Positions 7,752-29,567 of a stretch of 29,625 nt of DNA are shown here, in pieces (within the stretch, counting starts at the first letter, position 1; the number at the start of each line of letters is the position of its first letter). A program made the translations under genes and the position numbers. The notes under the pieces are model-generated. The model was not told the DNA's origin. It saw only the letters and a list, made by a program, of their open reading frames with translations, and ran no database searches. Origin of the DNA: a virus; the IMG/VR virus record IMGVR_UViG_3300004463_000648, positions 1 through 29,625 of that record. One strand, 5' to 3'.

Positions 7752-9037
7752 GCGTCGGTGTCCGCGTTGGTGGTCACGTAGAGCGTGATCCCGTGCAGGC
7801 GAGCATCGAGCGCCAGCGTGTCGCCGCCGTCGCCGGTGACGCGCGAGAGCCTGAAGAACACCATGTCCTCGGCGGCCGGACTGCCGGCGACGGTGATCGC
7901 CGCCGACTCGGGCGAGGTGTAGAGGTCGTTCGTCGTGCCGCCGGTGTCGCTGGAGGTCTGCGCCGTGCCATAGGCCGCGGCGATGGCATCGTCATTGCCT
8001 ACCGCAACGGCCTGCAGGTCCCACACCACGCCGAAGTTCACGGTGGTCGCGGCGTGCGACCAGTGCGCGACGAAGGTCACCGTGCCCTCGTTCCATTTCT
8101 TCGGCATGACGATGCCGAACTGCGCGTACTCCTGCGTCGTCTGGTCGAAGTTCAGCGTGCGGATGTCCGGCTGGTTGGCCGCGCTGGCGATGGCGGTCAG
8201 TGCTTCGCAGCCACCGCTGACGCTCGGCGCCATGGAGCCGGCCGCGATGTAGATCGCATGGCGGCCCTGGGTCGATCCGCCGCTCCCGGGCGCGCCCTCG
8301 TCATCGAAGTCGAAGTAGCACAGCGCGCCGTCCTGGATGTCGCCGCTTGTCTTTTCCAGCAGCGCGACGGTGAGCTTCCAGTAGCCGGTGCCGTCGACCG
8401 GCGTGGCGGTGTAGGCCCAGCGCTGCCAGCGCGCCGCGTCGGTGGCCTGCTGGATGTGCAGCGTGCCCGCCTCCAGTTCGGCCATGCTCGCGTCCACGTT
8501 CACCGCATCGGCCGTGGCCTCGTCGATGTAGAGCACCGTCGCGCTGCCCTGGGTGGCGTTGTTCCACTTGAACAGGCCCGCGCCGGGGTCGCTGTCGGCC
8601 GTGCTGCCGGTGTCGGCGGTGAAGGTCAGGCCGCGCATCTCGGTGCCGGAGCCGGCCGCGGCAGCCGAGCCATGCACGCCGGCCGGCCCCGAGTAGTGCG
8701 GCTCGACTGCGGTCACCACGCCGCCGGCCGTCGTGATCTTGTAGACGCGGGCGTAGTTGGTCGTGTCGTCCCAGTTGGTCGAGCTCGTGCTGACGCTGAT
8801 GACGCCGGTGGACCGCAGCACGACGACGTAGTTGTCCGCCGCGTCCGCGAGCGTGAGCGTGCCCTCTGCAACGCTGAAGGGCCCCCAGCGGTCGCCCCAG
8901 TAGGCCCAGGTCAGCCCGGTGGTGGCGGCGTGGCGCTTGAGGTAGGTGGCGAAGGCGTTGAGCGTGTCGAAGGCCTCGTTCGCGCGCGTCGGGTTGCCGG
9001 TGGCCGGCGTCTCGGAGAGTTGGGTCGGGAAGGTCAT
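7748..9037 (-). CDS. Minor tail/receptor-end protein
   Basis: This 429-residue protein follows the J-like gene with an ATGA overlap. The N-terminal part (RANEAFDTLNAFATYLKRHA, then TGLTWAYWGDRWGPFSVAEG) resembles the attachment segment of phage proteins that bind the tail tip. The rest is beta-rich, with NYVVVLRSTGVISVSTSSTN and a later TVTFVAHWSHAATTVNFGVV segment of jelly-roll character, and it lacks collagen or coiled-coil repeats. It could be a tail fibre or a central-tip accessory protein; which one is unresolved. No catalytic motif for a depolymerase is visible. Placement between the J-like protein and the LamG protein suggests that the three form the host-contact end. Confidence 0.65.
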   Translation of the reverse strand: MTFPTQLSETPATGNPTRANEAFDTLNAFATYLKRHAATTGLTWAYWGDRWGPFSVAEGTLTLADAADNYVVVLRSTGVISVSTSSTNWDDTTNYARVYKITTAGGVVTAVEPHYSGPAGVHGSAAAAGSGTEMRGLTFTADTGSTADSDPGAGLFKWNNATQGSATVLYIDEATADAVNVDASMAELEAGTLHIQQATDAARWQRWAYTATPVDGTGYWKLTVALLEKTSGDIQDGALCYFDFDDEGAPGSGGSTQGRHAIYIAAGSMAPSVSGGCEALTAIASAANQPDIRTLNFDQTTQEYAQFGIVMPKKWNEGTVTFVAHWSHAATTVNFGVVWDLQAVAVGNDDAIAAAYGTAQTSSDTGGTTNDLYTSPESAAITVAGSPAAEDMVFFRLSRVTGDGGDTLALDARLHGITLYVTTNADTDA

Positions 9038-12000
9038 AGGGTGATCTCGGCCTCGTGGCCGGCTCCGACGGTTGCTGAAATCTGCGCGACGCGCACGGTG
9101 TAGCCAGTGAGAGAGGCGATCACGTCGTACAGGCGCGTCGTCCCGAGCGAGCTGTTCACTGCGGCGGCAAGGGCAAGCTGACCCCCGGTGGCGCCGACGA
9201 GCGTGCCGTAGGCAGGCGCGGCGATCTCGCGGTCTACCGCGCCCGTCGTGCCATCGAGCCAGCGCAGGGTGGTGCCGCCAAACTCGTAGACGACGTTGCT
9301 GCCGTCGATGAATGGCTGCGACGAGATGCCGTCGGTGTAAGACTCGAGCACCGTGCCGTCGCTCGGGTCCAGCACCACCATGCCGGTGTTGGTCCAGACG
9401 AACAGAAGGCTTCCGGCGTACAGAAGGTCATAGGCGGAAGTGCCGGCCAGGTCGGCGGTCCAGGACACGGTCGGCAGCGCCGTCGGGTCGAAGCCCTGCA
9501 CCTCATCGGCGGCGCTGATGGCGTAGAACAGGCCGCCTCCTGCAGCCATGGCGCCGCCGAAGCTGATGCCGCCCCGGTCCGGCGCGTCGTAGCTGTTGAT
9601 GACGGCCAGCGTGGTGGCGTTGTGCTGGGTCAGGGTGCCGCTCGCGCGCCCGTAGCTCCAGATGTAGGTGCCGTCCCAGTACAGATCCGAGAGCTGGTCA
9701 TACGGCGCGGGTGACCAGGTGGCTGCGATGGCGCTCGGCGCCGACAGGTCGATGCGGCGGAGGTAGGTCTGGTCCGTCACCCCCGAAGGCGTCACGTCGG
9801 TTGCCGCGACGTAGGCCGTGGTCCCGACGTAGACCACCGCATCGACGCGGCCGTTGCACAAGCTCGGCGAGAGGTAGGTGCCGGCATCGGTCGACACGTT
9901 GCGCCCGATCAGGCGCCGGTCGTGGTAGGTCGTGCCCCAGTTCCAGATGCCGTAGAGCACGCCGCTGATGAGCGACGGAATCAGCATGGCCTGGCTGACC
10001 TCGCTGTCCTGCACGGCCTGCCCGAACGGCAGTCGCGGCTCGTCCACCGTCGTGATGCTCACCAGTGCGTCGAGCTCGTCGTACAGCTCCACCCGGTAGC
10101 TCTCGCTCGCCTCGCCGAGCGGCGGCTCGCCGACGACGGGTGCGCTCAGGCGCGTGCGGCGGTCCCAGGTGATCTCTCCGTCGCCGGCGCGGATGTCCAC
10201 CACGGCGCGCGGCACCAGGCACTCGCTGTTGCAGGTGAAGGACTGCCCGGCCACGCTGGCGACGCTGCGGCGGTCCGGCACGGCCTTGAAGTAGCGCAGC
10301 ACGCCGATCTCGGCCGCGAGCTGGGTGACGCGCAGCAGGCCGCTGTCGGCAGCGAGCACGAAGCTGTCGCCCTCGGCGTGGCTGTCGATGGCGAACTCGG
10401 TGCCCTGCAGGCCGCGCATCAGGCCACTGAGCAGGTAGGCCCTCGTCCCGACGAGCGTCGCGTTGCGGTAGCGGATCAGCTCCCAGCGGCCATGCGCGCC
10501 GACGAGCGCGACGTTGATGCTCGCGTCCGCGTACATCGCCGCGTGCGTGCTGCTGGACAGCGCGGCGCTGCCGCTCTCCAGCGTCACGGTGACGGTGTTG
10601 ACCTCGTCCCACGTCCAGCCGCCGGCCCAGGCGCCGAGCTCTGTGCAGGCGCCTGTGGTGGCGCTGCGCGTGACCGTGCCGATGGCGGTGTAGGTCACGT
10701 CGTCCGCGCTGCCGTAGAGCGTGACGCCCTCGTTCCCCGGGATCGTGATGGCCGCGTAGAAGCCGGGGCCATCATCGGCGTCGCGCAGCAGCGGCCCGTC
10801 GACCAGCAGCAGCGTCGCGGTGCCGACGGGCGCGACAGTGATCGCCTCCTCGTAGTCGGTCTCGGTGTCCAGCTCGTCGACCAGGGCGCTGATGTCGTTG
10901 AGCTCCCACTCGCACTGCTTCACGCCGTCGGCATAGCTCAGGCGCTTGATGCGCAGGTTGTAGGCGTTGCCGTCGATGTCGGTCACCGCGTAGGCGTCGC
11001 CGGGCTCTGCCGCTGCGTAGGCGTCGCTGATGCCGAAGCTGGCGGTCTTGGCAGCAGAACGCTGCATCACGGTGGCGCTGAAGGCGCGGCCGCGCGCCTC
11101 GGCAGGCGTCAGAACCACGTTGGTCTGCACGCGGCGAATGTCCGGGCCGTCCGTGGTCAGGCGGTCGCCGGACTGGAAATCGACATCGTGGTCCTGAGCG
11201 ATGTTGGGGTAGCCCAGACCCACGACGGCAGGGCTCTCGTCGTTGTTGCCGATCTTGAGCCCGGTGAAGGGCTCGCCGGGCGCACCGACACCCGAGCCCG
11301 TGTCGTTGAACGCGATGGAGCCGACCGTGGCCGCCGCGCGCCGCACGAAGCGCAGGGGAGCGCCGGGTACGAGGTCGAAGTGGTAGATGTCGCCAAGGTC
11401 GGCGATCGCCTGCGCGGCAGGGCCGATGGCCGTGAATCCGGTGACTTCCACGCCGACCAGGTCGCTGGAGTCCCAGTCGCTCGGGTCCAGCCCGGGCACA
11501 CGCGCGAGCTCGGCGTCTACGATGTCGGCCAGGTCCACGGTGGCCGGCGTCGCGTTGTCGATGTAGACGTTGTTGGTGCCCCAGATGTCGGCCGTCGGGT
11601 AGTCAACGTCGAGCCGGCGGTAGTTGCCGGCGCCGTCGGTCACGAGGCCGAACGCCGGGTCATCGGACTCGACAAAGCTCTCGTCGGGCGTGATCGACTC
11701 CCAGACCGTACCGCCGGTCAGTCCGTAGAATCCGTAATAGACCTCGCCGAAGTGGTCGCCGGTGAAGCTCACCGTGATCGGCGTGTGACCGATCGGCGTG
11801 TTGAACTGGACGGCTACCGTCTTTGTGACCTCGCCGTCCGCCCAGTTCAGCGTCTGGCTCCAGGTGCCGACGCCGCCGACCGTGACGGTGACGGTGTAGC
11901 TTTCGACGGGGAACGATGTGATGCGGTCGAACCTCCAGTACACCAGCCAGGCCGAGCCGGTGGCCGTGGCAGAGATGGTGTCGTCCAGGTACCAGCCCGA

Positions 12001-17981: not shown

Positions 17982-18374
17982 TCAGGCGCTGCTGACGATC
18001 TCGGTGCGGTCGTTGAACCAGTCGAACTGCAGCGCGATGCGGTAGAGCTTGGTCTCGGGCTCGCGCAAGTCGATCGGCATCCCGGTCATGTGCGCGTAGG
18101 GCTCGATCGCGTCGCGCGCCGCCTCGGCCAGCGCGTCGACGCCGGCACGCGTCTGGTGATAGCAGTCGATCTGCACCGCCATGCGGTCGGTGCTGGGCAG
18201 GCCGCTGAGATGGTTCTCCGGCGCGGCGCCGACGATGGCCCAGACGATGTAGGGTCGCGCCGTGTCCTGCGGCGCTTCGCCGTTGGGCCAGATCCGCGGC
18301 GGGTTGGTGCCGACGATGTTCTTGACCGCTTCGGATTCCTTCAGCGCGCGAAAGACCGGCGGCTTGAGGCTCAC
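17982..18374 (-). CDS. DUF3168 tail terminator/completion protein
   Basis: This 130-residue protein matches DUF3168. The N-terminal helix (PPVFRALKESEAVKNIVGTN) leads to RIWPNGEAPQDTARPYIVW, the typical PxxxxxPYIVW signature, followed by a strand QIDCYHQT and a helix RAGVDALAEAARDAIEPY. It corresponds to lambda gpU/HK97-type tail terminators that cap the tail tube. The start is GTG, overlapping the previous stop as GTGA. It is the last gene before the terminator-like hairpin. Confidence 0.9.
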   Translation of the reverse strand: MSLKPPVFRALKESEAVKNIVGTNPPRIWPNGEAPQDTARPYIVWAIVGAAPENHLSGLPSTDRMAVQIDCYHQTRAGVDALAEAARDAIEPYAHMTGMPIDLREPETKLYRIALQFDWFNDRTEIVSSA

Positions 18375-18865
18375 GACAGGCCGCCCTTCTTCCCGAGCTT
18401 GCGAACGATGCGGTCGATCGACTTCAGCAGCTCGGTCTCCGTCGTCGCGATGGCCTGGCGCGCGGTGGCACTGAAAGCCGGCCGCAGCCAGGGCTCGGCG
18501 GGCTGCTGGCTGCTGCCGTACTCGAGCAGCTGCGCGGTCTTCAGCGTCGTGACCTGCGCGCCCTTGCGGCCGTAGGACTTGCGGCGCACGCGCACCAGGT
18601 AGCGCTCGCCCTTGCCGTCGGCCGGCTCCTTGCCGCGGGTGACGACCAGGTTCTTCAGCAGCAGGCCGGTGGACTGCGCCTGCTCCTGGTCGGCGGCGTT
18701 GCTCACCGACTGCTGCAGGTTGGCCTGCGCCTGCTTGAGGATCACCACGGCGCCCTTGCGCAGCGCGGCGCGCACCGGACCGCCGCGCTTGCTGACCACT
18801 TCGGGCGGCAGCCGCTTCAGCAGGGCCAGCACGCCGTCGAGGCCTTCAAGACGGACGGTGGTCAC
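18371..18865 (-). CDS. HK97 gp10-like head-tail joining protein
   Basis: This 164-residue protein matches the HK97-gp10_like family. The N-terminal helical start (LEGLDGVLALLKRLPPEV) is followed by RAALRKGAVVILKQAQANLQ, the beta-rich middle part TRGKEPADGKGERYLVRVRR, and the C-terminal LLEYGSSQQPAEPWLRPAF motif, which is diagnostic for the family. Such proteins help complete the neck or tail end. The GTG start overlaps the previous gene by 4 bp. Confidence 0.9.
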   Translation of the reverse strand: MTTVRLEGLDGVLALLKRLPPEVVSKRGGPVRAALRKGAVVILKQAQANLQQSVSNAADQEQAQSTGLLLKNLVVTRGKEPADGKGERYLVRVRRKSYGRKGAQVTTLKTAQLLEYGSSQQPAEPWLRPAFSATARQAIATTETELLKSIDRIVRKLGKKGGLS

Positions 18866-19131
18866 AGCGGCATCCTCTGATCACGCTCGGCGCCGGCCGG
18901 ATGCCCATCCAGCGTGAGTGCAGGCGCCTGGAAACCTTCGTCGGGCTCGGTGGCGAAGTACTCGCACTTCACGGTCACGATCTCGCCAACGGCGAAGCGC
19001 ACCTCGAACGAGCGCACGGTCTCAGGAACCTGCAGCGCATCGCGCAGAAGCTCCTGCAGCTGTTTTCCAAGGCCGTGGTCAGTCGTCAGCATCTTCATTT
19101 GCGGCTCATTCACTTCAGGCTCCAATCTCAT
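18862..19131 (-). CDS. Hypothetical phage protein (89 aa)
   Basis: I do not recognise this protein. It consists of a helical N-terminal half (GLGKQLQELLRDALQVPETV), a central beta-strand segment (RSFEVRFAVGEIVTVKCEYF) and a short polar tail. ATG 19131 overlaps the glycosyltransferase stop by 4 bp; Met12 is a possible later start. It lies between the glycosyl/methyl-transferase insert and the gp10-like gene, so it may belong to either the neck proteins or the insert. Confidence 0.7.
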   Translation of the reverse strand: MRLEPEVNEPQMKMLTTDHGLGKQLQELLRDALQVPETVRSFEVRFAVGEIVTVKCEYFATEPDEGFQAPALTLDGHPAGAERDQRMPL

Positions 19132-19826
19132 GCGTGCGCGTCCTGCAACTCGAGATACCGATCGGCGTCCGGTCCGACCCACTCGCGCAGCAACCGCCCG
19201 CCGTGGTCCGGCGTGCCGGTGAACGACTGCCGGTGCCCCGCGCCGATGCCGCCGCGCCCCGGCAGGCCCTTGATGCCGACCACGCGGTGCCCGCCGATGA
19301 GCCGGCCGCCGCCCGCGCGCCACAGGTGGATGTCGATGAACTTCAGGTGCGCCGTGCACATGGCGCGCAGCCGCTTGAGCGCCTGGCCGCGCACCGCCGT
19401 GCTGCACAGGCTGGCGTGGCTGCCGTTGACGAGCTGCCGGCCAACGCCACGCGCGAGGTTGTAGTAACGCGCATGGCCCTCGCCCACCAGCTCGGCCGTC
19501 TGCAGCGCCTCATGCACGGTGGCCAGCCAGTCGGGCGCGTACCAGTCGTCGTCCTCGATCACGGCCACCGACTCGGCGTCGCCGATGACGGCCAGGCCGG
19601 CCAGGAGGTTGCGGGCCTGCGTGTTTTCGCCGGAGCGCCAGTACGGCCGCGGGCGCACGACGCATAGCTCCCAGCCCGGCCGCGCGAAGGACAGCGGCTG
19701 CGCCTGCTCGCCGTCGTCGACGATGACCCAGCGCACCGGCCCGTCGAACGTCTGTCGTGCCATCCACTGTTCGCACAGGCCCCAGGCCTGCGGTCGGCAG
19801 CCGGTCGCGGTAAGCAGGGTCAGCAC
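19128..19826 (-). CDS. GT-A-like glycosyltransferase
   Basis: This 232-residue protein starts at a GTG (19826) with GGGAGG just upstream, overlapping the previous gene by 7 bp. VLTLLTATGCRPQAWGLCEQ at the N-terminus and VRWVIVDDGE (31-40) match a Rossmann-like GT-A nucleotide-sugar-binding start. VAVIEDDDWYAPDWL (87-101) carries the DxD metal and sugar-phosphate motif of family 2-like glycosyltransferases. GQALKRLR and VVGIKGLPGRGGIGAGH follow in the acceptor half. It would transfer a sugar from a nucleotide donor to an unknown acceptor. It has no membrane helix. Its setting among structural genes points to modification of a virion protein or of phage DNA, which is inference. Confidence 0.75.
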   Translation of the reverse strand: MLTLLTATGCRPQAWGLCEQWMARQTFDGPVRWVIVDDGEQAQPLSFARPGWELCVVRPRPYWRSGENTQARNLLAGLAVIGDAESVAVIEDDDWYAPDWLATVHEALQTAELVGEGHARYYNLARGVGRQLVNGSHASLCSTAVRGQALKRLRAMCTAHLKFIDIHLWRAGGGRLIGGHRVVGIKGLPGRGGIGAGHRQSFTGTPDHGGRLLREWVGPDADRYLELQDAHA

Positions 19827-20431
19827 AGCACCTCCCGAAGCGGTTTCAGCGCGAAGCACCTGAGGGTGGTTTCGCGCGAGCAGTTGATGACCTCGACGCC
19901 GAGGCGCTTGAAATCCAGCGCTGCACGCGCGAAGTGCCCACGCCACAAGCTCCAGTTCGCCGGCCGGCGCACACCCTCGGGGTGATCACCATGCCAGTGC
20001 CCGCCGCTCTGGTCGAAGCCCAGCATCACGATGCGCGCCGCTCCGAACTGGAACGCCAGCCCGAGCGCGCAGAAGCCGCTGTTGCCGCCCCAGCCGATGA
20101 CGCCGGGGCGCGCGCTGATGCCGGCCACTTTCTTGTCGTAGGGGCAGCGGTGCATTCCCTCGGGCGCATAGTCCGCGTCGCCGGTCCAGAACTCGCCCCT
20201 GCACTTCGCGCGCATCGCATCGATCTCTTCGCGCCACCACGGCGGGTCGCTGCTGTAGTGCACGTCGGCCCAGGGCGCCAGGCGCCAGGTCGAGTTGACG
20301 GTGATGACCCGAGCCTGGCCGCGGCACCAGTCCGCGTCCTCCTGCGTCATGCTCGGGCCGCTGGCCAGCACGGCGACGGTCTCGCCGGCCCAGCGGCGCC
20401 AATCAGGGAACACGGGCGACCGCGAAGACAT
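19820..20431 (-). CDS. MptE/DUF115-like protein, paralogue A
   Basis: This 203-residue protein has a Rossmann-like start, GETVAVLASGPSMTQEDADW, with the GxGPS-type loop at 22-29. VITVNSTWRLAPWADVHYSS (42-61), a WW pair, GGNSGFCALGLA (115-126), MLGFD (136-140), HWHGDHP (145-151) and VINCSR (181-186) follow. These motifs recur in paralogue B (20942-21580). The GPS loop with vN..R recalls DUF115/MptE-type proteins and the GT29/GT42 sialyltransferase fold, but the reaction is not established. The three His residues of HWHGDH could be catalytic or bind metal. No membrane segment is present. Confidence 0.7.
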   Translation of the reverse strand: MSSRSPVFPDWRRWAGETVAVLASGPSMTQEDADWCRGQARVITVNSTWRLAPWADVHYSSDPPWWREEIDAMRAKCRGEFWTGDADYAPEGMHRCPYDKKVAGISARPGVIGWGGNSGFCALGLAFQFGAARIVMLGFDQSGGHWHGDHPEGVRRPANWSLWRGHFARAALDFKRLGVEVINCSRETTLRCFALKPLREVLC

Positions 20432-20960
20432 GGATGGGCACGCGCTTCTTGAAGACCTGCGTGTCGTGGTTGCGCAGCTCGAGCACGGTGTCGCCGGCGT
20501 ACTCGGTCTGGATGTCGATGAAGCCGGCGTCCTCGAGCAGGCCGCGAAGGCCGCTGTCGGTGTAGCGGTAGTAGTCGTCCGGGTAGCCGTGGATGTGGAA
20601 GCAGGTCAGCGTGGTGACGACGATGGAACCGCCGGGGCGGATCACGCGGCGCAGCTCCGGCAGCGCCAGCCAGGGCCGGCGCACATGCTCGAGCACCTCG
20701 CTGCAGAGCACGGAAGAGAAGCGGCCTTCCCACTCGGCCGGCAGGGCGTGGATGTCGGCCACCTGGTCGACGCCCAGCCCCGGCTGCATGTCGACGCCCA
20801 ACCAGGCACCGCGCGCGAGGTCGTTGTTCACCAGCCACCAGGCCGCCGGGTTGTGGCGGCGACTGCCGACCTCGAGCACGTCGTCGCCCAGCGCGTCGGC
20901 ATGTCGCTCGATCCAGTGGCGCACGCGGCCGCGCACGGTGTTCAACGGGGCGCGAGGCAT
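20403..20960 (-). CDS. Class I SAM-dependent methyltransferase
   Basis: This 185-residue protein has a standard SAM-binding order: motif I DDVLEVGSRRHNPAAW (26-41), acidic Asp57 after strand 2 (WLGVDMQPG), DQVADIHALP, motif IV-like SSVLCSEVLEHVRRPWLALP (82-101) and motif V-VI RPGGSIVVTTLTCFHIHGYP (108-127). It has the look of a methyltransferase acting on a small molecule or a glycan, of the type found in polysaccharide gene clusters, and lacks the DPPY/NPPY or PC motifs of DNA methylases. ATG 20960 overlaps paralogue B's end by 19 bp, and its own end overlaps paralogue A by 29 bp. A sugar O-methyltransferase is the best guess. Confidence 0.8.
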   Translation of the reverse strand: MPRAPLNTVRGRVRHWIERHADALGDDVLEVGSRRHNPAAWWLVNNDLARGAWLGVDMQPGLGVDQVADIHALPAEWEGRFSSVLCSEVLEHVRRPWLALPELRRVIRPGGSIVVTTLTCFHIHGYPDDYYRYTDSGLRGLLEDAGFIDIQTEYAGDTVLELRNHDTQVFKKRVPIHVFAVARVP

Positions 20961-21580
20961 GATTCCAGATCCATCCGGGTGAACATGGTCAGCGCGGTCG
21001 CCCGGCTGCAGTTGATGACTTCGGCCTTCCGGCTCACCGCCCGCTGTAGCGCGGCGAACTTGGCAGGCCACCGCCCCACCGTGACGGCGTTGCCAAGCCC
21101 CGGCGGGTGGTCGCCATGCCAGTGCGTGCGGTCGCCGGTGTGCTGGCAGTCGTAGCCGAGCATCAGCACCCGCTGGGCCCCGCAGGCCACGGCGAGCGAC
21201 ACACAGGCCGCGCCGCTGTTGCCGTGGGCGTTGAATTGGTGCGGCTGCAGCCGGCGCACGCCGTAGTTCACCGGCACCGGCGAGGATGTGAAGCGCTCGC
21301 CGTCGAAGCCTCGGCGCGCCTCGTCAACATGGTGGTCCCACCACTTCTTGTCCATCGCGAACAAGGCGTCGGCCCAGGGCGCGATGCGGAAGCTGGTGTT
21401 CGCCACGAACACGGCGCGGCGCTGGGCAGACTCGCGCCATTGCCGGACGAGCTGCACGTCCTGCTCGGTCAGGCTCGGGCCGCTGGCCAGGCACACCACC
21501 TCGCCGCCCGCAACCAGGCCGCGCAGGTCATCCAGCTTGGCGACTGGCTTCTTCGGCACCACGGCGCGCTTAGCCAGCAT
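20942..21580 (-). CDS. MptE/DUF115-like protein, paralogue B
   Basis: This 212-residue protein (ATG 21580; a longer in-frame reading from 21619 is possible) repeats the motifs of paralogue A in the same order: GGEVVCLASGPSLTEQD (25-41), ANTSFRIAPWADALF (60-74), KKWWDHH, HGNSGAACVSLA (119-130), VLMLGYDCQ, HWHGDHP (153-159) and EVINCSRATALTMF (187-200). A central insert (PVNYGVRRLQPHQFNAH) differs from A. The two copies flank the methyltransferase gene, so they arose by duplication and now probably act on different substrates. It overlaps the head-closure gene by 11 bp. The reaction is unknown; a sugar or nucleotidyl transferase is suspected from the GPS loop. Confidence 0.7.
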   Translation of the reverse strand: MLAKRAVVPKKPVAKLDDLRGLVAGGEVVCLASGPSLTEQDVQLVRQWRESAQRRAVFVANTSFRIAPWADALFAMDKKWWDHHVDEARRGFDGERFTSSPVPVNYGVRRLQPHQFNAHGNSGAACVSLAVACGAQRVLMLGYDCQHTGDRTHWHGDHPPGLGNAVTVGRWPAKFAALQRAVSRKAEVINCSRATALTMFTRMDLESCLAPR

Positions 21581-21920
21581 TGGTGCCGCTCGAGCACAAG
21601 AGGGTGATGCCGCGGACACGGGAATGCGGGTCCGGAATCACCGCCTCGATGTTGTAGATCTCGCTGCCGTGGACCACCCGCATGCGCGGCAGAACGCCGG
21701 CGCGCCAGCGCATGCGGATGCGGCTGCTGACCTTGCTGTTGACCGCCGCTGCAGCGATGAGCTCTCGCCCGGAGAGCGCCTCGATCACCACGCGCTGCCG
21801 CCGGCCGCCGAAGGCGTCCGTCCAGCCCTCTTCTCCGGACAACACCTCCCGTCCATCGCTGTCGAGCGTGGTCTCGAAGTCCTGGAACAGCACCAGGTGG
21901 CGCAGCTTGCCGGAGCGCAT
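21570..21920 (-). CDS. Head closure protein (SPP1 gp16-like)
   Basis: This 116-residue protein matches the phage head-tail joining/closure family. [20 protein letters not shown] is the usual opening (short helix-free N-terminus, RH.v.iq motif). GWTDAFGGRRQRVVIEALSG carries the W..g..W/V-a.vepl.grE-type segment with GREL, and SRIRMRWRAGVLPRMRVVHG matches the tikyr.gi...mrv.y.g segment. IYNIEAVIPD then precedes the closing beta strand. It stops leakage of packaged DNA and connects to the tail. It directly precedes the glycosyl/methyl-transferase insert. Confidence 0.9.
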   Translation of the reverse strand: MRSGKLRHLVLFQDFETTLDSDGREVLSGEEGWTDAFGGRRQRVVIEALSGRELIAAAAVNSKVSSRIRMRWRAGVLPRMRVVHGSEIYNIEAVIPDPHSRVRGITLLCSSGTNAG

Positions 21921-22576
21921 CAGGCCATCCCCAGGCGGTAGCGGTAGGACCGCAGCAGGGTCTCGACGCCGAATGGGATCTCGGCGAGGCTCTTCTCGAC
22001 CGTCGCCTCGCGGTTCTCGTACAGGTGCCCCAGCAGCAGCAGGATGGCGGCGCGCAGCTGCTTGGGCAGTGTCTCGCCGGCGTCGTCGCTGCTGGCCTCA
22101 GGCCCCAGGTAGCCGACCTCAAGGCGCACGCGCACCGCGTTCGGGATGGCTTCCAGCGCAGGCCAGGTGCGGCCGCTGCCGTTGAGCACCAGGCGCGCGG
22201 GGAAGGCGTAGTCGTCGAGCGTGAGGTTCAGGTCGGCGTCGCTGCTGCTCGATGAGGAGGTCTCGCCCTGATGCGTGTAGACCAGGTCCACGAGCTCGAT
22301 CGCCGGGTAGGCCGCCAGCTCGAGCGGCTCGCCATCCTCCGGAAAGGTGTCGAAGGCCTGCTCGACCTGCCGGCGTGCGATGGTGCAACCGGTGAAGGAC
22401 TCCGCATGCTCGCGGGCAGCGCCCAGCAGCGCGAGGACCAGTTCGTCGTCCGGGTGAGTCTCGACGTCGTCGCTGTCGACGTCGGGCACCAGGTTCAAGT
22501 GCGCGCGGCACTCGGCCAGCGTGATGGGCTCGACCGGCTCGGTCAGGTCCTTCAGGCGCTTGGGGTTGTAGCTCAT
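21920..22576 (-). CDS. Head-tail connector (HK97 gp6-like)
   Basis: This 218-residue protein carries the gp6-like connector features. [19 protein letters not shown] near the N-terminus is the typical P-v-tl-eaK-hLr motif, followed by [20 protein letters not shown] with a [17 protein letters not shown] strand. [17 protein letters not shown] near the C-terminus is the standard helix that packs on the portal. A run of six serines ([11 protein letters not shown], about residue 105-115) is an unusual flexible loop. The protein forms the ring between portal and head closure. It overlaps both neighbours by 1-4 bp. Confidence 0.9.
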
Positions 22577-23673
22577 GGCTCGCCCTTGCCGTCGCGGCCG
22601 CGCTTGACGGCGAGCTTCCAGTCCGCCGGCTTGTCACCGGGCGAGGCGCTGGTGTCGCGCTGCGCGATCCACAGCGAGCCGCCGTAGGTGACGGTGTCGT
22701 GCTGCGCGTACTTGCGGCTGAGCTCGAACACGCCGCGGTAGAGCGGGATCGGCAGCTGGGCCTTGAACTCGTGCCGGCGGCCGGCGCGCTCGAACACCAG
22801 GGTCATGCCACGTTCGCCGTCGTACTCGAAGCCCATGTCTTCGAAACCGTGTCCATCCGCGCCATCACGACCGTCCTTGCCGTCCTCGCCGCGCTCGCCT
22901 GGGCGGCCAGGAGCGCCCGGCAGTCCATCGCGGCCCGCCGGCACTAGGGTGGCGGCGCGGGCGATCAGGGTCGGCATCACGCGCTCGACTTCGGCCGCCA
23001 CGTCCTTGGCGACCATGTCGGCCAGCAGCTTGCTGACGGCCTGCTCGACCATGTCGGCCGTGCAGGGCGCGCCAGGGTCGCCCTTCTCGCCGCGGGGGCC
23101 GGCTTCCCCTACGCGGCCATCGGGGCCATCGCGGCCGGCGGCGCCTGGCGGGCCCGCGGTCAAGGGCACGGTGGCAACGCTCTTGTCCGTGAGCACCAGG
23201 TCGAAGGACTTGCCGTCGGCGGCGATCTCGACGCGTTCGATGCCGACGCCGTCCTTCCCGTCGCGCCCGTTCTGGCCAGCCGGCCCAGGCGCGCCGGGTT
23301 CTCCGCGCTCACCGGGGCGGCCATCTTGGCCAGCAGTGCCCGGGTCACCCTTCTCGCCGACAGGACCAGGCGGACCCGGCTCGCCATCCCGGCCGGCCGG
23401 GCCGGGGTCGCCCTTCTCGCCGCGGGGGCCGGGCAATCCCGGCTCACCGTCACGGCCAGCCGGACCGGTATCGCCCTTTTCGCCACGGGGGCCGGGACTG
23501 CCCTCTTCGCCACGGGGCCCCCGATCGCCGGCGGCCCCATCTTGTCCTGCCTCACCCTTCTCGCCGCGCTCGGGCTGCCGCTGCTGGAGGGCTACCAGCT
23601 GCTCCTTGAGCGGAGAAATGGCGCGCGCGATGTACTCGTGCAGTTCGTCGACAAAGCGCTTGACGTCAAGCAT
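22573..23673 (-). CDS. Collagen-like (Gly-X-Y) virion protein
   Basis: This 366-residue protein begins with a coiled-coil-prone segment ([20 protein letters not shown], then [13 protein letters not shown]). Three Gly-X-Y blocks follow at about 37-143, 174-203 and 247-276, rich in GEKGD, GEPG and GPRG triplets, separated by short globular segments. The C-terminal domain ([20 protein letters not shown], then [17 protein letters not shown]) resembles small carbohydrate-binding or beta-propeller-like attachment modules found in phage proteins. It probably trimerises as a collagen-like fibre on the head or neck; its position between portal and connector genes suggests a head decoration. Exact DNA repeats (for example 23075-23102 and 23405-23432) show how the array can expand or shrink. 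Confidence 0.9.
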
Positions 23674-25045
23674 GGGTCAGGCTCTCCGGCGACTTGCGCC
23701 ACAAGTGGTGAAGCGCCTTGTCGGTCTCGTCCTGCTCCAGGACAGGCGACACCGGTGGGGGCGGCGGCTTGGCGAAGGGGTCAGCGCGATCGCGTGCGTC
23801 CAGCGCCGACAGGCTGTAGTTCTGTTGCTGCAGATAGGGCGTGTTGCCGCCGGTGACGGGCGCCAGGTTGAAGCGCGCGCGCCCTTCGTTCGGCGACATG
23901 AAGCCCGCGCCGATCGCGTCCGCCGTGGCCTTGACCTTGGTCGCGGTATCCATCCGCAGCAGGTCATCGAGGTCGAACTCGGTGCGGTACTTGGCCGCGT
24001 CGATGCGAAGCCCCTCGTCGAGCAGCGCCTCGATCGCCTCGATGTGCCCCTGCAGGCAATCGGTGTAGTAGATCTGGTTCAGGACTTCCGCGTTCTGGTA
24101 GGTCGGCACCGGACCGACGCCGACCTTGTAGGCCGGCACGTGGAAGGCGCTGCACACCATCTCCGCGCTCATCTTTAGCTGGGCGATCAGGTCGGCGTCG
24201 ACCGCGTTGACGGCGAGCGCCTCGTACTTGAGCCCATCGCCGAGCACGGCGACACGGCCCGCGTTTTCGCCGGTGTAGTTCTTCTCCCAGTGCTTCTTGA
24301 GGCGCTCGGCCGTGTCGTCCGCGATCTTGGCGGGCGCGGTAAGCAAGCCGCCGGGCTGGGCGCCGTTGGCAAAGAACTTGGCCGACGTGTTCTGGATGTT
24401 CAGACCCTGCTGCGCGGCCAGACCGCACGCGAAGATGGGCGACACGCCCACCAGCGGGTGGAACAGACAGGCCATGCGGTCGTGGATGATCTCGCTGGCC
24501 GGCACGGTGGCCGACTCATGCAGCACCAGCGACAGCACGTCGGTCTTGAGTTCGTAGAACACATCGCCGTTGGTCGCGATCAGGGGTCGCACGAGGTTCG
24601 GATCCAGCACGTACAGGTGCTTGACCACGCCGCGCTGGTCGCGCTCCTTCAGGATGTAGGCGTTGCCGTGGGTGAGCTTGGACAGCACCCACTGCTCGAT
24701 GAACTGCTGGCGGGTCTGGTAGTGGTTGGGCTTGCGCAACACCGCGGTGTACGCCGCGACCTGCACCTCTTGCCAGATGGCGCCGGTGCGCTCCATCAGC
24801 CGCAGGCCGAGCTTGCCAAGGTCGGCCGCGATCAGCGTGATGCAGCCATACAGCGCCGCGAAGGCAAGCACGTTCTCGGCCTTCACCTCGACGTCCCGCT
24901 GCCACGCGCCGGCGAAAGACTCGAAGATCGTGAACCACCCGCGGTCGCCGCGCGCCGGCGCGGACAGCATGGCCGCCTTCTCGGCGCGCTTGACGCTCAA
25001 GCCGAAGCGCCCCCCGCGGCTGATCTGAAGGCCGAGCAGGCGCAT
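23666..25045 (-). CDS. HK97-family portal protein
   Basis: This 459-residue protein matches HK97-type portals. [20 protein letters not shown] is the typical early helix, and [20 protein letters not shown] with [20 protein letters not shown] the usual following block. Then come [33 protein letters not shown], and [20 protein letters not shown] with [20 protein letters not shown]. The C-terminal tail is proline-rich and disordered. The portal forms the dodecameric ring for DNA entry. The start at 25045 overlaps the previous stop as TGATG; a longer ORF extending to 25435 is a frame artefact. Placement after, not before, the capsid gene is unusual. Confidence 0.95.
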
Positions 25046-25320
25046 CAGGCGTCGCTCTGCTCGTCGGAGGGCTCGGAATCGCGCTCGGCGGACGGCGTCT
25101 CGGAGAGCTCGAGCAACTGGGGCGCCTCGGCCACCATGTCGCGGCGCTTGTACTGGCGCTTGGGCTTCTCGAGCCTTTCCTCGGCCGGCGGCGGCGGCGG
25201 CGCTGCGGGGGCCGCCTGGGCGACCATCGTGACCAGGCGGGCCTTGACGAGAGCGCTCGCCGCGCGAGGCGCGATGCGGGTGATGCGGCCGCTCTTGAGC
25301 TTGACGGAGACCTTGGCCAT
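25045..25320 (-). CDS. Small hypothetical head-region protein (91 aa)
   Basis: The start at 25320 (MAKVSVKLKSGRITRIAPRA) is chosen because AAAGGA lies about 6-7 nt upstream; an in-frame ATG at 25335 lacks such a site. A short basic N-terminal domain is followed by a poly-Pro linker (APAAPPPPPAEE) and an acidic, disordered tail rich in Ser, Glu and Asp. I do not recognise a family. Its position between capsid and portal genes, and its size and charge, fit a small accessory head protein. Confidence 0.7.
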   Translation of the reverse strand: MAKVSVKLKSGRITRIAPRAASALVKARLVTMVAQAAPAAPPPPPAEERLEKPKRQYKRRDMVAEAPQLLELSETPSAERDSEPSDEQSDA

Positions 25321-25339
25321 CGTTCGTCCTTTCAATGAA

Positions 25340-25364
25340 GAGGGGCCGCACGCGGCGGCCCCTC
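25340..25364 (-). terminator. Strong hairpin downstream of the capsid gene
   Basis: GAGGGGCCGC and GCGGCCCCTC form a perfect 10-bp stem with a 5-nt loop, 18 bp after the capsid stop. On the minus strand it is followed by TTCATTGAAAGG, so the T-tract is weak. It may act as a partial terminator or as an mRNA 3' stabiliser that raises capsid mRNA over downstream genes. Confidence 0.65.
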
Positions 25365-25382
25365 GGTCGGCTCAGGTAAGCG

Positions 25383-27305
25383 TCAGGCGCTGGACACCGT
25401 GCCGTACTCGGCGGCGCCGATGTAGGCCACCGCACCGGTACGCCGCTTGGCGTAGTTGATGCGGCGAACCACCTTGAACGCGGTCGACTCGGCCTGGAAC
25501 ATGGAGGTCATGTAGGCAGAGGCAGCCACCGGCGTGTCGGTCGCGCCGGTCGGGGCGTTGTCCTGCTCGATCATGGCCTCGCGGCTCATCGAGACCTGGA
25601 TGCCGGTGTCGCCGATCTTCCAGATGTCGCTCGGCTTCAGCAGGATCAGGTCACCGGCGCCGACGTTGTCGCCCGTCACCACCATGTCGCCTTCGAGCAT
25701 GCCGCCCTGTGCGGTGAGGCCCGGGAACTCCACCTGGCCGAAGGCATTGCGCATCAGGCTGATCGCCTTGGCCAGGCTCGGCGTGGTGACCCAGGCCAGG
25801 CCGCTGGCGTTCTTGGCGGCGATGAAGGTGTCGTACAGCACCTTGATGTCGTAGCGCAGCGCATCGGCGTCGGTGCCGGCCGAGCCGGTGATCGCGACGC
25901 CGTTGAGGATGCCCGCCGGAGACACACCATTGCTGGCGGCAGTGGTCGACAGGAAGGTGCTGTCCACGCGCTGCGCGCTGGCTTCGGCCAGGCCGTCGCG
26001 CACCAGCATCTCGGCCGACGGATCGCTGTCGAGCAGCAGCTCGTTGCTGATGACGGCCAGCGCGGCCACCTTCAGGGGCGTGAGCTCGACGCTGGAGAAG
26101 TCCATCGCCGAAGCCGGGATCGGCTTGGACTCACCGACCCAGTAGCCCGTGGCCGCACCGTCCTGGCCCTTGATGTGCACGCGCGCCGGCACCGAGCGCA
26201 GCGGCAGGCGGTCGAACACCGTTCGCGAGTACAGGTACTCGATGAAGTCGCCGTTGAAGCGCGCGTCGCTCTGGGCGAGCTCGTGGCCCCATTCGCTGCC
26301 ACCGGTGCCGCCGCCGGCGACGGCGGCCTTGATGAACTCCACCAGCTTCGGGTGCGTCTGGCCCCAGCGCTTCTGCGCGATGGCGACCGGCGAAACGTCC
26401 AGCAGCCGGCCGCAGGCCTTGGCGATGATGATGCGGGTGAAGTTCTCGCCCTTGAACTTCTCGTCCGGGTCCTGGCGCTTCACGAAGAAGGCGGGCCCGC
26501 GGCTGCCGGCGGCGCCCTCGAAGCTGCGCTGTTGGCTCACCGGCTGCGCGGTGCCAGCGGTCAAGGCCTCGGCCTGCTTCAGGCGGATCTCGTCGCCGAG
26601 CGCCTCGACGTCGGCCAGCAGCTGGTCGAACTCGGTACGCTCGTCCTGCGTCATCGCGCGCTTCTCGGTGGAGGCGGCGTCCTTGATCTCGTTGAGGCGG
26701 GCGGTCTTGACGCCCAGCGCTTCACGCAGCTCGGCGAGCTGCTCGTGGATGGTTTTCACGGTGTGACCCTTTCCGGTCTTGGTTGCGGAACCCGAGACGC
26801 CGGGCAGTTGAGTGCCCAGGCCAGACGCGGCGCTGCGGGCGGCAAAGGACTTGACGGCCACGATCGTGGCCTCCTGGTTCGCTGGGATGGTCACGGCCGA
26901 AAGCTCCAGCCACTCCCACTTGAGGTATCGCCGACCCCAGCGCGACCCCTCGATGTCCGAAGATTCGAGCGGGTTGAACCCGATCGACAAGCCTCGCACC
27001 AGGTTGCTCTTGATGTACTGCCAGGCCAGCGTCAGCCGCTCCTTCAGCGGGCCGGTGTCCGGCACGTCGGCGATCTCGCCTTCGATCTCGATGCCGCTGT
27101 CGCTGACCTTGGCGGTGCGCACCCATCCGATCGGGTCGCGCTGGTCGTGCTGCCACAGCAGCGGGATCGGCAGCTTGAACTGCGCGCCGCGCGACTCCAC
27201 CACGTCGTCCATCCGATCGGTTGCGACAGTGGTCGCGATGCCGCGAAAGGTGCGGCTCTGCTGGTCGACCTGCTTGATCGTCAGCGTTGCATAGGCTCGG
27301 TCCAT
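25383..27305 (-). CDS. Fused prohead protease and major capsid protein (HK97 fold)
   Basis: This 640-residue fusion combines two normally separate proteins. Residues 1-160 are an S78/U35-type prohead protease: LLWQHDQRDPIGWV (His53), VRGLSIGFNPLE (Ser107) and EWLELSAVTIPANQEAT, the C-terminal signature, with Glu132/134 as candidate third residue. Residues about 183-260 are a coiled-coil delta domain (VKTIHEQLAELREALGVKTA) that acts as internal scaffold. The rest is the HK97 capsid fold: GKA-type core (WVGESKPIPASAMDFSSVEL, then TPLKVAALAVISNELLLDSD), E-loop and A-domain segments, ending TAFKVVRRINYAKRRTGAVA. The protease would cut the delta domain out during maturation. A GTG at 26757-26759 (codon 183) has AAAGGG upstream and could start a separate capsid protein. 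Confidence 0.95.
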   Translation of the reverse strand: MDRAYATLTIKQVDQQSRTFRGIATTVATDRMDDVVESRGAQFKLPIPLLWQHDQRDPIGWVRTAKVSDSGIEIEGEIADVPDTGPLKERLTLAWQYIKSNLVRGLSIGFNPLESSDIEGSRWGRRYLKWEWLELSAVTIPANQEATIVAVKSFAARSAASGLGTQLPGVSGSATKTGKGHTVKTIHEQLAELREALGVKTARLNEIKDAASTEKRAMTQDERTEFDQLLADVEALGDEIRLKQAEALTAGTAQPVSQQRSFEGAAGSRGPAFFVKRQDPDEKFKGENFTRIIIAKACGRLLDVSPVAIAQKRWGQTHPKLVEFIKAAVAGGGTGGSEWGHELAQSDARFNGDFIEYLYSRTVFDRLPLRSVPARVHIKGQDGAATGYWVGESKPIPASAMDFSSVELTPLKVAALAVISNELLLDSDPSAEMLVRDGLAEASAQRVDSTFLSTTAASNGVSPAGILNGVAITGSAGTDADALRYDIKVLYDTFIAAKNASGLAWVTTPSLAKAISLMRNAFGQVEFPGLTAQGGMLEGDMVVTGDNVGAGDLILLKPSDIWKIGDTGIQVSMSREAMIEQDNAPTGATDTPVAASAYMTSMFQAESTAFKVVRRINYAKRRTGAVAYIGAAEYGTVSSA

Positions 27306-27309
27306 CGAT

Positions 27310-29013
27310 TCACCCCACGAAGAACATCTGAAACTCGGGCGCCTCGGCCTGGACCGACATCGCGCGGCCGATGGCCATGAGCATTGCGACCGGCCCGTCG
27401 ATCTTGTTTTCCGGCCGGCTCTTGGTCGGATGCTTCAGGCCGCTGAACTTGGACACGCTCACCTCGACGTTGCTCATCATCCAGGTGAAGACCGGGTTGC
27501 CGTCGAAGCGCAGCTTGTTCTCGAGCACCAGGTTCTCGACATGGATCAGCGGCTGCGTGAAGAACATCGGCGCCTGCCGGATCTCGACCAGCGGCAGCCC
27601 TTCGCCGACCAGCTTGGTGGCGAAGTAGCGGCTGAGCGCTGGGTCAAACGGGATCTCCTGCACGTCGAACATCTGGCAGTACTTGCGCAGGTCGTCGGCG
27701 ATCACGTCGAAGTCGGTCGCGTTGCCGTCGGTCTCCACCACGTGACCGGCGCGCGCCCAGCCCTGCAGGTGCGCGTTGCCGCTCTCCTCGATCGCGGCCT
27801 CGTTCAGGTACAGCCGCGGAAAGACGTGCACCACGTCGTCGCGGAGGAACACCAGCGCCAGGGCTGCGAAGTCGCGCTTCTCGGCCAGGTCCATGCCGAT
27901 CCAGCAGCGCTCGCCGGCGAAGTCCTCTAGCTTCTGACCCGGGGCGGCGCACTTCTCCCAGGCCACCATGTCCATCCAGGCCGAGTCGGCGTTGACCCAC
28001 ACGTTCAGGTGCTTGGTCAGGAAGTTGCCCACCGCACTCGGCTGGGCCAGCGCCTTGCGGCAGGCGGCCTCGAGGTGCTCGCGCCGCACGCTCACGTCGA
28101 GGTTCGGGTTGGCCTTGCGCCACACGGCCTGGTCGTGCCAGGCGTCACCGTCGTCGATCGTGTAGATGATCCCGAACCACGTCGGGTCGGCGACCACGCC
28201 TTCCAGGACCTTGATCGTGTAGTCCCGCAGCTCGTAGCAGATGCCGGCGCGGTTGCTGCCGGCGGTGGTGATGGCGCTGATGAGCGACTGGCTGCGGGCG
28301 CCGTCAGCCGAGTCGATCACGTCCCAGACCGCGCGCGTCTTGTGCGCATGCACCTCGTCGACGACGCAGCCGTGGATGTTCAGCCCGTCCAGCGTGCTGC
28401 CCTCGGCGTTCAGCGGCTTGAAGCTGCTGGCCATGCCGGGCAGCGTGATGTCGTGCTTGCCGACCTCGACGCCGAAGCGAGCCAGGAACTCCGGCTCCCG
28501 CAGCGCCATGTTCCGGGCCACGTCGAACACTTCGCGCGCCTGGTCGCCGGTGGTCGCCGCGCTGTAGCAGTGGGCGCCGGGTTCGCCGTCGGCCGCCACC
28601 AGGTAGAGCTCGCGGGCGGCGGCTCGGGTGCTCTTCGCGTTCTTGCGGGCGATCTCCTCGTAGCTGCGGCGGAAGCGGCGCAGCCCGGTGTCGCGGTGCT
28701 TCCAGCCGAAGAGCTGGAACTCGATGAAGATCTGCCAGTCCTCGAGCTTCAGCTTGTTGTAGCCGACCACGCCGTCGACGTAGACCGGCTTCGCCCACTC
28801 GCCCTTGATGTGCGGCAGCAGCTCGATGAAGCGGCATGCGCGCGATCCCGCGGTGCGATCCAGCACGTACGGGAACTCGTCCGTGCCGGCGCGCGCCAGG
28901 TCCTGCAGGAAGCGCCGGCAGGCAAGGCGCTCGAAGCGGCCCGCGACCTCCGCCCCGGACACGACGCGCTCGGCATACGCGTGCAGCCGGTCGAAGTAGG
29001 TCGGTGTCGTCAC
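27310..29013 (-). CDS. terL: Terminase large subunit
   Basis: This 567-residue protein matches phage terminase family 1. The N-terminal ATPase has an adenine-binding and Walker A region around SYEEIARKNAKST (117-129, with Lys127 as candidate P-loop Lys), a Walker B motif NIHGCVVDE (212-220, Asp219-Glu220) and a coupling motif SAITTAGSNRAGICYELRDY (246-265). The C-terminal nuclease shows Asp375 in CWIGMDLAEKRDFAAL and Asp539 in NKIDGPVAMLMAIGRA, the usual RNase H-like metal ligands. It packages DNA into the prohead and cuts the concatemer. The GTG start overlaps the small terminase stop as GTGA. A much longer in-frame ORF upstream is an artefact of the GC-rich frame. Confidence 0.95.
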   Translation of the reverse strand: MTTPTYFDRLHAYAERVVSGAEVAGRFERLACRRFLQDLARAGTDEFPYVLDRTAGSRACRFIELLPHIKGEWAKPVYVDGVVGYNKLKLEDWQIFIEFQLFGWKHRDTGLRRFRRSYEEIARKNAKSTRAAARELYLVAADGEPGAHCYSAATTGDQAREVFDVARNMALREPEFLARFGVEVGKHDITLPGMASSFKPLNAEGSTLDGLNIHGCVVDEVHAHKTRAVWDVIDSADGARSQSLISAITTAGSNRAGICYELRDYTIKVLEGVVADPTWFGIIYTIDDGDAWHDQAVWRKANPNLDVSVRREHLEAACRKALAQPSAVGNFLTKHLNVWVNADSAWMDMVAWEKCAAPGQKLEDFAGERCWIGMDLAEKRDFAALALVFLRDDVVHVFPRLYLNEAAIEESGNAHLQGWARAGHVVETDGNATDFDVIADDLRKYCQMFDVQEIPFDPALSRYFATKLVGEGLPLVEIRQAPMFFTQPLIHVENLVLENKLRFDGNPVFTWMMSNVEVSVSKFSGLKHPTKSRPENKIDGPVAMLMAIGRAMSVQAEAPEFQMFFVG

Positions 29014-29567
29014 GAGAAGTCGGCGAAACCTCGCGGCTCGTCGGCAGGACGCTGTGCAGGCGCCTGGATGTCCCCGGGCACGAGCTCGAGGCTCATCTGG
29101 GCGCGCAGCGCCGTCGTCACGCGAGCGCGGGCGTCGGGCCGCAGGCCGAAGCTCTCGAGCAGGCGATGCAGCTTGGCCTGCTCCTTGTTCAGCACCTGGT
29201 ACAGCGCCGACTGCACCAGCAGGCCGTTCGGCGTGCGGTCCATCAGCGCGTCGGCCGGATCCTTCTTCTCGGAGATCAGCTGCGCCTGCCGGCCGGCGAT
29301 CGAGCGTTCGATCTGCTCCAGCCGACCCGCGGTCTGGCACAGCATCGCGAAGCCTTCCTGGTCGATCTTGCTCAGCAGGTTGTAGCGGAGCAGCTCAGGC
29401 GCCAGGCGCTTCCACACCTTGGTCGCCTCGCGGCCCAGCCAGCGCGGCCGGTTCGGCTCGCCCACCTCCGGCCTGAAGGTCTCGTTGAGGTTCAGCGGAC
29501 GATGGCCGCGGTTCCCCTCGAGGACCTTCAGTTCATGCGGCTTCGCTGCTGGCCCACGCTGTCCCAC
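29010..29567 (-). CDS. terS: Terminase small subunit, P27 family
   Basis: This 185-residue protein matches P27-type (Terminase_4) small terminases. MGQRGPAAKPHELKVLEGNR is the usual opening (RGPkPkPtalKlLeGNpGkR), followed by NRPRWLGREATKVWKRLAPE, then a helical oligomerisation region and DRTPNGLLVQSALYQVLNKE near the C-terminus (typical PNG...P.l.i.n.a). Its role is to recognise the packaging site and present DNA to the large subunit. The start is a GTG with a GGGGGT stretch just upstream. It is the first gene of the late block inside the window. Confidence 0.95.
   Translation of the reverse strand: MGQRGPAAKPHELKVLEGNRGHRPLNLNETFRPEVGEPNRPRWLGREATKVWKRLAPELLRYNLLSKIDQEGFAMLCQTAGRLEQIERSIAGRQAQLISEKKDPADALMDRTPNGLLVQSALYQVLNKEQAKLHRLLESFGLRPDARARVTTALRAQMSLELVPGDIQAPAQRPADEPRGFADFS

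Follow-up and report, generated by a model that had tools for sequence, protein, structure and literature searches.

Related enzymes and phage cassettes

Among the closest described systems, the GT42 sialyltransferases CstI and CstII work on lipooligosaccharide. The flagellin glycosyltransferase Maf (Maf_flag10/DUF115, PF01973) attaches O-linked glycans to Ser/Thr in a filament protein that self-assembles, and the C. botulinum Maf in E. coli accepts CMP-Kdo as well as CMP-Neu5Ac (PMC11339370). The phage proteins described herein, designated ST, are presumed to share with Maf the transfer of a CMP-activated ulosonate to a self-assembling protein. In phages, versions of the present cassette occur in P1 (PmgO/PmgP-Ppp-PmgQ), D3 (Orf7-Orf12-Orf13) and PAJU2 (gp10-12), where ST homologues (50% identity in D3, 36% in PAJU2 and 31% in P1) come with other sugar enzymes and, in D3 and PAJU2, with a methyltransferase; these genes are annotated as generic or hypothetical. 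P1 still forms plaques without pmgO, pmgP and pmgQ (PMC10695390), and because these genes are dispensable, the phenotype does not indicate a target. Mycobacteriophages also encode glycosyltransferases, for which a capsid protein has been proposed as the target (PMC11256854). However, their enzymes belong to other families and their hosts are actinobacterial. We know of no GT42/Maf-like constant member in mycobacteriophage glycosylation, and no published account of the cassette was found in the open-licence literature.

The window, i.e. the whole stretch of viral DNA analysed (29,625 nucleotides), carries four cassette genes within a virion operon. The genes are as follows, in the order of transcription:

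27310..29340, minus strand: terminase large subunit, homologous to the annotated large terminases of D3 and PAJU2
25383..27305, minus strand: prohead protease-major capsid fusion (PF04586, 1.8e-10; PF05065, 4.3e-21)
23666..25435, minus strand: portal protein, homologous to the PAJU2 and D3 portals
22573..23673, minus strand: collagen-like structural protein (PF01391, 8e-28) with 36 Gly-X-Y repeats
21920..22576, minus strand: head-tail adaptor Ad1, a gp6-like connector (PF05135, 1.9e-11)
21570..21920, minus strand: head closure protein Hc1 (PF05521, 1.4e-18; phrog_25), upstream flank
20942..21580, minus strand: ST1, ATG start; predicted GT42/Maf/MptE-fold glycosyltransferase-like protein of PHROG 4603, homologue of D3 Orf7 and P1 PmgO
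20403..20960, minus strand: MT, class I SAM-dependent methyltransferase
19820..20431, minus strand: ST2, second PHROG 4603 paralogue, from a distinct clade whose members have GT2 partners
19128..19826, minus strand: GT, GTG start; GT2-type GT-A glycosyltransferase with an EDDD metal/nucleotide-sugar motif
18862..19131, minus strand: small ORF between GT and the gp10-like gene, outside the cassette
18371..18865, minus strand: HK97 gp10-like/neck-tail completion protein (phrog_5, 9.5e-13), downstream flank
17982..18374, minus strand: tail terminator (PF11367, 5e-18; phrog_78)

An earlier note on this DNA described two paralogues around a SAM methyltransferase, followed by a glycosyltransferase; all four reading frames are present on the minus strand in the order ST1-MT-ST2-GT. 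They overlap by 11 bp (head closure/ST1), 19 bp (ST1/MT), 29 bp (MT/ST2) and 7 bp (ST2/GT). The frame of ST1 is already open from a GTG at 21619, and the start codons of MT and GT were chosen by alignment to relatives. The flanks named in the note also stand, with head closure before the block and the gp10-like and PF11367 genes after it, except that the small ORF at 18862-19131 intervenes between GT and gp10; similar small ORFs precede gp10 in two other loci (L285 and L309). No membrane segments were predicted in the cassette proteins. The cassette genes are under purifying selection (median dN/dS 0.07-0.13), and since intact homologues recur in the same order in many independent phages under this selection, a chance arrangement is excluded.

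Family and fold of the cassette enzymes

Both ST1 (2e-51) and ST2 (5e-43) matched the profile of phrog_4603, and with 36% identity over 198 aa (E 5e-32) they are, at the sequence level, true paralogues. Because Pfam alone was weak, with ST below its cut-off and the window GT at 0.013, larger alignments and structures were built. The AlphaFold2 model of ST1 (pLDDT 92, pTM 0.85) was closest to the Maf flagellin glycosyltransferase (Z 16.1 over 181 residues, 3.3 A), followed by MptE (MptE/HPPK; Z 13.8), CstI (Z 13.2) and CstII (Z 12.3), and matches below the sialyltransferases were at Z of about 7 or less, except SteA (12.0). A profile search of the PDB with 74 ST sequences found CstII at E 8e-4 to 1.8e-3, although a search from 15 sequences had given only sub-threshold matches. 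The fold comparison is the structural check called for in the earlier note, and together with the CstII profile match it bears out the guess made there that the paralogues are sialyltransferase- or MptE-like. Thus, on the predicted structure, ST1 and ST2 can firmly be placed in the GT42/Maf/MptE fold superfamily, ST2 by its homology to ST1 and PHROG 4603 rather than by a model of its own.

Membership in the superfamily does not make ST1 a Maf proper, which has three domains and scores above the PF01973 cut-off. The fold shared with Maf is that of its central catalytic domain; Maf carries additional N- and C-terminal domains, whereas the phage ST proteins are single-domain (about 165-225 aa; ST1 about 212 aa), share 14% identity with Maf and are encoded in head-tail operons. 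CstI and CstII are alike in fold and profile, but they are 14% identical to ST1, and a long segment of CstII is absent from the phage protein. The motifs LASGPS, APWAD, GNSG, HWHGDHP and VINCSR, listed in the earlier note, are present, several of them nearly invariant among 74 homologues. The SGPS, N, NSG, GxD and HWH..H positions are kept across this diverse set, with H165 and H170 of HWHGDHP nearly invariant. The best profile alignment to Maf (5mu5), a weak one at E 0.03, pairs the leading His of HWHGDHP with a Maf His, and the alignment to CstII stops short of the CstII catalytic His.

Two other readings of the ST proteins were weighed against these data. ST1 and ST2 might be MptE-like pyrophosphokinases or other nucleotide enzymes that make a small molecule, as the MptE/HPPK score is tied with that of CstI, and MptE-like is the sole Pfam family matched by ST1, below its cut-off (PF01973; 24.1 bits, cut-off 34.6), and matched at E<1e-3 by 23 of the 74 family members. 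Nevertheless, this reading is unlikely: Maf scores highest, the family profile finds CstII and no MptE at E<=1, ST is paired near-universally with another glycosyltransferase, and some larger cassettes encode a GT29-like protein. It is less likely still that the ST proteins are structural or injected virion components that have lost catalysis. PAJU2 ORF010, an ST homologue, was labelled a "structural protein" by its depositors, beside capsid and tail proteins and with no stated basis for the label; however, the conserved positions of the 74 homologues and the persistent linkage of ST genes to other sugar enzymes argue for catalysis.

Sequence evidence firmly identifies MT as a class I SAM methyltransferase (Methyltransf_11, 1e-7, 32.9 bits, cut-off 21.2). 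The DxD-bearing, GT-A-like call for GT in the earlier note is confirmed, and GT is firmly a GT2-type GT-A glycosyltransferase: PF00535 was matched by 23 of 57 family members (best 3e-12), the AlphaFold2 model (pLDDT 96.5) resembled WrtF (Z 16.8), TarS (Z 16.5) and SpsA (Z 15.8), and the EDDD motif is conserved in the 57 homologues, with D38 and E91/D93/D94 invariant. Searches with tblastn found no named phage for the window GT and only five weak matches for MT.

Distribution and exchange of the cassette

The co-occurrence raised in the earlier note was observed, and the genes travel as a unit: ST and GT (GT2) relatives adjoin MT relatives in 39/40 distinct viral records selected by MT. ST was present in 33 of 39 records selected by GT, and a second glycosyltransferase in 46 of 48 viral records selected by ST, a set dominated by D3-like prophages. 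The order ST-MT-ST-GT recurs in L120, L121 and L125/L190, and in split form in L119. The block had also been described as interrupting the head-tail run, and the operon is indeed continuous in cassette-free relatives; the gap between Hc1 and gp10 is 8-38 bp in many loci without a cassette and 1.4-5.8 kb where one fills this slot. Filled and unfilled sites thus lie between the same two neighbours, which marks a swappable accessory cassette. In a sample drawn by way of the adjacent gp10 gene, 38 of 47 carried a cassette.

ST stays constant, and the partner varies among GT2, GT8, GT9 and GT-B types; in P1, D3 and PAJU2 the partners differ from those of the window (the GT8-like PmgQ; phrog_6804, with a weak GT9 match). 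At least 24 changes of partner type are counted along the ST tree, a quickly built one with many unresolved forks and no comparison with shuffled labels, and ST2 groups in its own clade. Larger cassettes gain GT29-like, further GT-like and MT genes. The GT29-like protein had no match in the PDB by phmmer, and a homologue of it matched PF00777 at 2.9e-4, slightly under the cut-off. Several extra ORFs of the largest cassettes, GT-B-like by eye, had no Pfam match, and an ATP-grasp-like partner seen by eye (L003, L005, L007) was not confirmed in profile searches. The enzyme set would fit an LPS target too, as GT9, GT8, GT42 and Kdo transferases are usual soluble LPS-core enzymes.

Proposed function, donor and target

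Herein, we propose, with a probability of about 0.52, that a virion protein receives a small methylated glycan from these enzymes, ST1 and ST2 adding a CMP-activated ulosonic acid; the donor, the acceptor, the order of reactions and the benefit to the phage are what we infer. Judging from the operon position, the cassette would be expressed late, as cytoplasmic enzymes. ST1 and ST2 would each most likely transfer Kdo or, in hosts that produce one, a nonulosonic acid; GT would add a further sugar from an NDP-sugar donor, and MT would O-methylate the product. The acceptor would most likely be Ser/Thr of a virion protein from the same operon, and a connector, tail or minor head protein is a better candidate than the major capsid or collagen-like protein. 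Cassettes would be exchanged among phages with ST kept and partner glycosyltransferases swapped, as expected if the chemistry of the virion surface is under diversifying selection.

A CMP-Kdo-synthetase-type gene was found in 18/18 lysogen genomes and NeuB in 4/18, and no CMP-sugar synthetase was found among 15 phage records. Kdo is thus apparently, from gene content, the sole CMP-activated ulosonic acid at hand in all 18 lysogens. The specific version, in which virion proteins are O-glycosylated with Kdo from the host CMP-Kdo pool and capped by interchangeable sugars and methyls, with P1 pmgO/pmgP/pmgQ and D3 orf7/12/13 as members, is doubtful, and to our knowledge protein Kdo-ylation has no precedent as a natural viral modification.

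The earlier note had offered the collagen-like protein and the capsid as targets, and neither fares well. Collagen repeats occur in only 7/199 cassette-bearing records, and those of the window are nearly without Ser/Thr; in the gp10-selected sample, repeats were found in 6/58 with the cassette versus 2/22 without. The D3 virion cryo-EM paper, with a vertex map at 2.7 A, does not mention glycans (PMC12749128), so the major capsid is unsupported in D3. The D3 capsid and collagen-like proteins are therefore not likely to be general targets.

In the main rival reading, the cassette acts late in infection on the LPS core or another surface glycan of the host; the receptor would be masked and progeny kept off the dying cell, debris and infected neighbours. 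This is possible, with clearly less weight than a virion target. The partners found (GT9, GT8, GT2, GT-B) include classical soluble LPS-core types, to which Kdo transferases also belong, CstI and CstII act on lipooligosaccharide, all 26 bacterial genome records carrying ST are Pseudomonadota, the named phage hosts encountered are Gram-negative, and P1 and D3 adsorb to LPS. However, nearly every siphophage record whose flanks are long enough has the cassette in the head/connector operon. Siphophage cassettes shift between two joints, at MCP and at Hc1/gp10, yet remain within the capsid-connector-tail transcription unit. Known serotype-conversion genes usually have promoters of their own and are active in the lysogen. 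Moreover, an O-antigen receptor would still be there after the addition of one or two core sugars.

That the enzymes glycosylate phage DNA, the lesser option of the earlier note, is highly improbable, although glycosylated phage DNA is known and late gene products can act on packaged DNA. A thymidylate synthase/dCMP hydroxymethylase family gene, as needed for hydroxymethyl bases, was found in 0/15 cassette-bearing phage records, restriction enzymes cut P1 and D3 DNA ordinarily, and the substrates of the nearest folds are glycans, flagellin or pterin, none of these folds being known to act on DNA.

Thus, a testable function is offered for long-studied phage genes, P1 PmgO/PmgP/PmgQ and D3 Orf7/Orf12/Orf13, and a modular cassette is described from phages of many Pseudomonadota. 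If the target is the virion, the particles would bear host-derived or unusual sugars, with consequences for stability, adsorption, immune recognition and phage therapy, and the enzymes would offer compact, one-domain tools with which to glycosylate proteins. Should LPS be the target, the cassette would represent a new late route of superinfection exclusion.

A four-gene block in the head-tail operon

The window is the IMG/VR record of a temperate siphophage with an integrase at 1830-3005. On the minus strand, the genes for terminase, a protease-capsid fusion, portal, a collagen-like protein, head-tail adaptor and head closure are followed by a four-gene block, a small ORF, a gp10-like gene and the tail terminator, and then by the major tail protein, tape measure and tail tip. 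The block between head closure and gp10-like, described in the earlier note as a glycosyl/methyltransferase cassette, was confirmed, and the observation could be widened.

20942-21580, minus strand: ST1, sialyltransferase-like, first gene
20403-20960, minus strand: MT, class I SAM methyltransferase, second gene
19820-20431, minus strand: ST2, paralogue of ST1, third gene
19128-19826, minus strand: GT, GT2-type glycosyltransferase, fourth gene

Overlaps of 11 bp (head closure/ST1), 19 bp (ST1/MT), 29 bp (MT/ST2) and 7 bp (ST2/GT) were observed. The small ORF before gp10-like (18862-19131) has a C-terminus, LDGxxxxERDQxxPL, that is also found in small ORFs preceding gp10 in loci L285 and L309. 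The C-terminal domain of the collagen-like protein (22573-23673) also occurs in PAJU2 gp07 and matches PHROGs 1289 and 2271, named 'portal protein', probably a mislabel. Accessory genes encode a DUF1643 protein near the integrase (651-1202) and, past the tail genes, a DUF5675 protein on the minus strand (5171-6151).

The enzyme classes proposed for the block are supported. First, ST1 and ST2 (36% identity, E 5e-32) match PHROG 4603 ('alpha-2,3-sialyltransferase') at 2e-51 and 5e-43, and the ST family profile (74 members) reached Campylobacter CstII at 8e-4; their sole Pfam match was MptE-like, under the cut-off. The AlphaFold2 model of ST1 (pLDDT 92) resembled Maf (Z 16.1), MptE/HPPK (13.8), CstI (13.2), CstII (12.3) and human ST8SiaIII (9.0) in the PDB, a predicted fold that by itself cannot separate transferase from kinase. 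Second, the GT model (pLDDT 96.5) has a GT-A fold closest to WrtF, TarS and SpsA, and PF00535 was matched by 23 of 57 GT relatives. Third, MT carries a Methyltransf_11 domain, over the cut-off. No membrane segment is predicted in the block enzymes, and the purifying selection on them is comparable to that on the structural genes.

Co-occurrence and the insertion slot

Viral contigs were scanned with ST, MT and GT each on its own and bacterial genomes with ST, yielding 199 distinct records; the bacterial scan gave 26 loci, all in Pseudomonadota (26/26). Among records with sufficient flanks, those selected by MT contained ST in 39/40 and GT2 in 39/40, and those selected by GT contained ST in 33/39. 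ST-selected viral records held a second glycosyltransferase in 46/48 and at least two structural genes in 48/48, figures that are less independent because many of these records are near-identical D3-like prophages; a recognised partner was present in 13/19 ST-selected bacterial records. The order ST-MT-ST-GT recurs in L120, L121 and L125/L190, and L119 has a split arrangement, with MT-ST-GT following head closure and a further ST following the capsid gene.

When the gp10-like protein was used as query, ignoring the cassette, 47 loci with at least 5 kb upstream were obtained, of which 38 carried cassette genes and 9 carried none. Head closure and gp10 are often separated by 8-38 bp in the cassette-free loci (L330, L284, L290, L333 and others) and by 1.4-5.8 kb where the cassette occupies this slot. 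In other loci the cassette has a different position, after the capsid gene and before the adaptor.

Known phages and partner swapping

Identity to ST1 is 50% for D3 Orf7, 36% for PAJU2 gp10 and 31% for P1 PmgO. PmgP, which adjoins PmgO, also falls in the ST superfamily; thus P1, like the window, has paired ST-like genes and, after them, a glycosyltransferase, in P1 of GT8 type (PmgQ).

P1 NC_005856 (L010), 8498-9124: PmgP, second sialyltransferase-superfamily protein
P1 NC_005856 (L010), 9795-10496: PmgQ, GT8/glycogenin-like

PmgP and PmgQ bear only generic annotation labels, and P7 names its copies hdmB/hdmC, for head morphogenesis. P1 pmgO, pmgP, ppp and pmgQ are not needed for plaque formation by CRISPRi (PMC10695390). 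The PAJU2 homologue ORF010 (AP009624, L342, 6492-7061) is labelled 'structural protein', as are the capsid and major tail protein, and may have been detected in virions. No word with the string 'glyc' occurs in the paper on cryo-EM of the D3 capsid (PMC12749128). The annotated orf6.5/orf7 boundary of D3 (L012, 5691-6409) looks wrong; ST homology starts at about 5831-5864, within orf6.5 and in the ST frame, as also in Psp6.

Partners have been swapped around ST, within the limits of a quick ST tree (136 rows) that requires at least 24 changes of partner type (GT2, GT8, GT9, GT-B) and 8 slot changes, and in which the window's ST2 clusters with other second STs. Partner glycosyltransferases were identified by profile matches, at 7e-5 for the PmgQ family against glycogenin/GT8 and weakly, at 0.043, for phrog_6804 against GT9 heptosyltransferase. 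ST occurs with MT and GT9 in Caulobacter phage RB23, and with GT-D, a second MptE-like protein and GT2 in virus S20. Some larger cassettes hold GT9-like, GT29-like and additional MT genes, and others several GT-like genes, MT and GT8. Six-gene cassettes between head closure and gp10 (L271, L278, L280, L273) comprise ST, MT, a GT8-like protein and several GT-like proteins for which Pfam gave no match. Other ST cassettes (L003:4302-5204, L005:809-1711, L007:6834-7718) pair a GT8-like enzyme with a protein resembling ATP-grasp enzymes on visual inspection, a reading that profile searches did not confirm. No description of an ST-centred swappable cassette shared by D3, P1 and numerous uncultured phages was apparent in the open literature searched; phage-encoded virion glycosylation as an idea is already known.

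Donor and target

Maf enzymes O-glycosylate flagellin Ser/Thr with nonulosonic acids, and the C. botulinum Maf also takes CMP-Kdo in E. coli (PMC11339370). A CMP-sugar synthetase was sought in 15 phage records and found in none (0/15), so that a CMP-sugar donor would have to be host-supplied. Among 18 ST-family-bearing bacterial genomes (completeness not given), the nonulosonic synthase NeuB was present in 4/18 and a CMP-Kdo-synthetase-type gene in 18/18. Should ST be a CMP-ulosonate transferase, the sole donor apparently open to all would be Kdo.

The earlier note placed a methylated glycan on a virion protein or, less likely, on DNA, and a DNA target is likewise disfavoured here. The main rival is LPS, whose core synthesis uses the same enzyme families as the cassette; a virion acceptor is favoured because the cassette sits in a virion-assembly unit. 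We infer a mechanism in which ST, if a CMP-ulosonate transferase, would draw on a host CMP-sugar, GT would extend the glycan and MT would methylate it.
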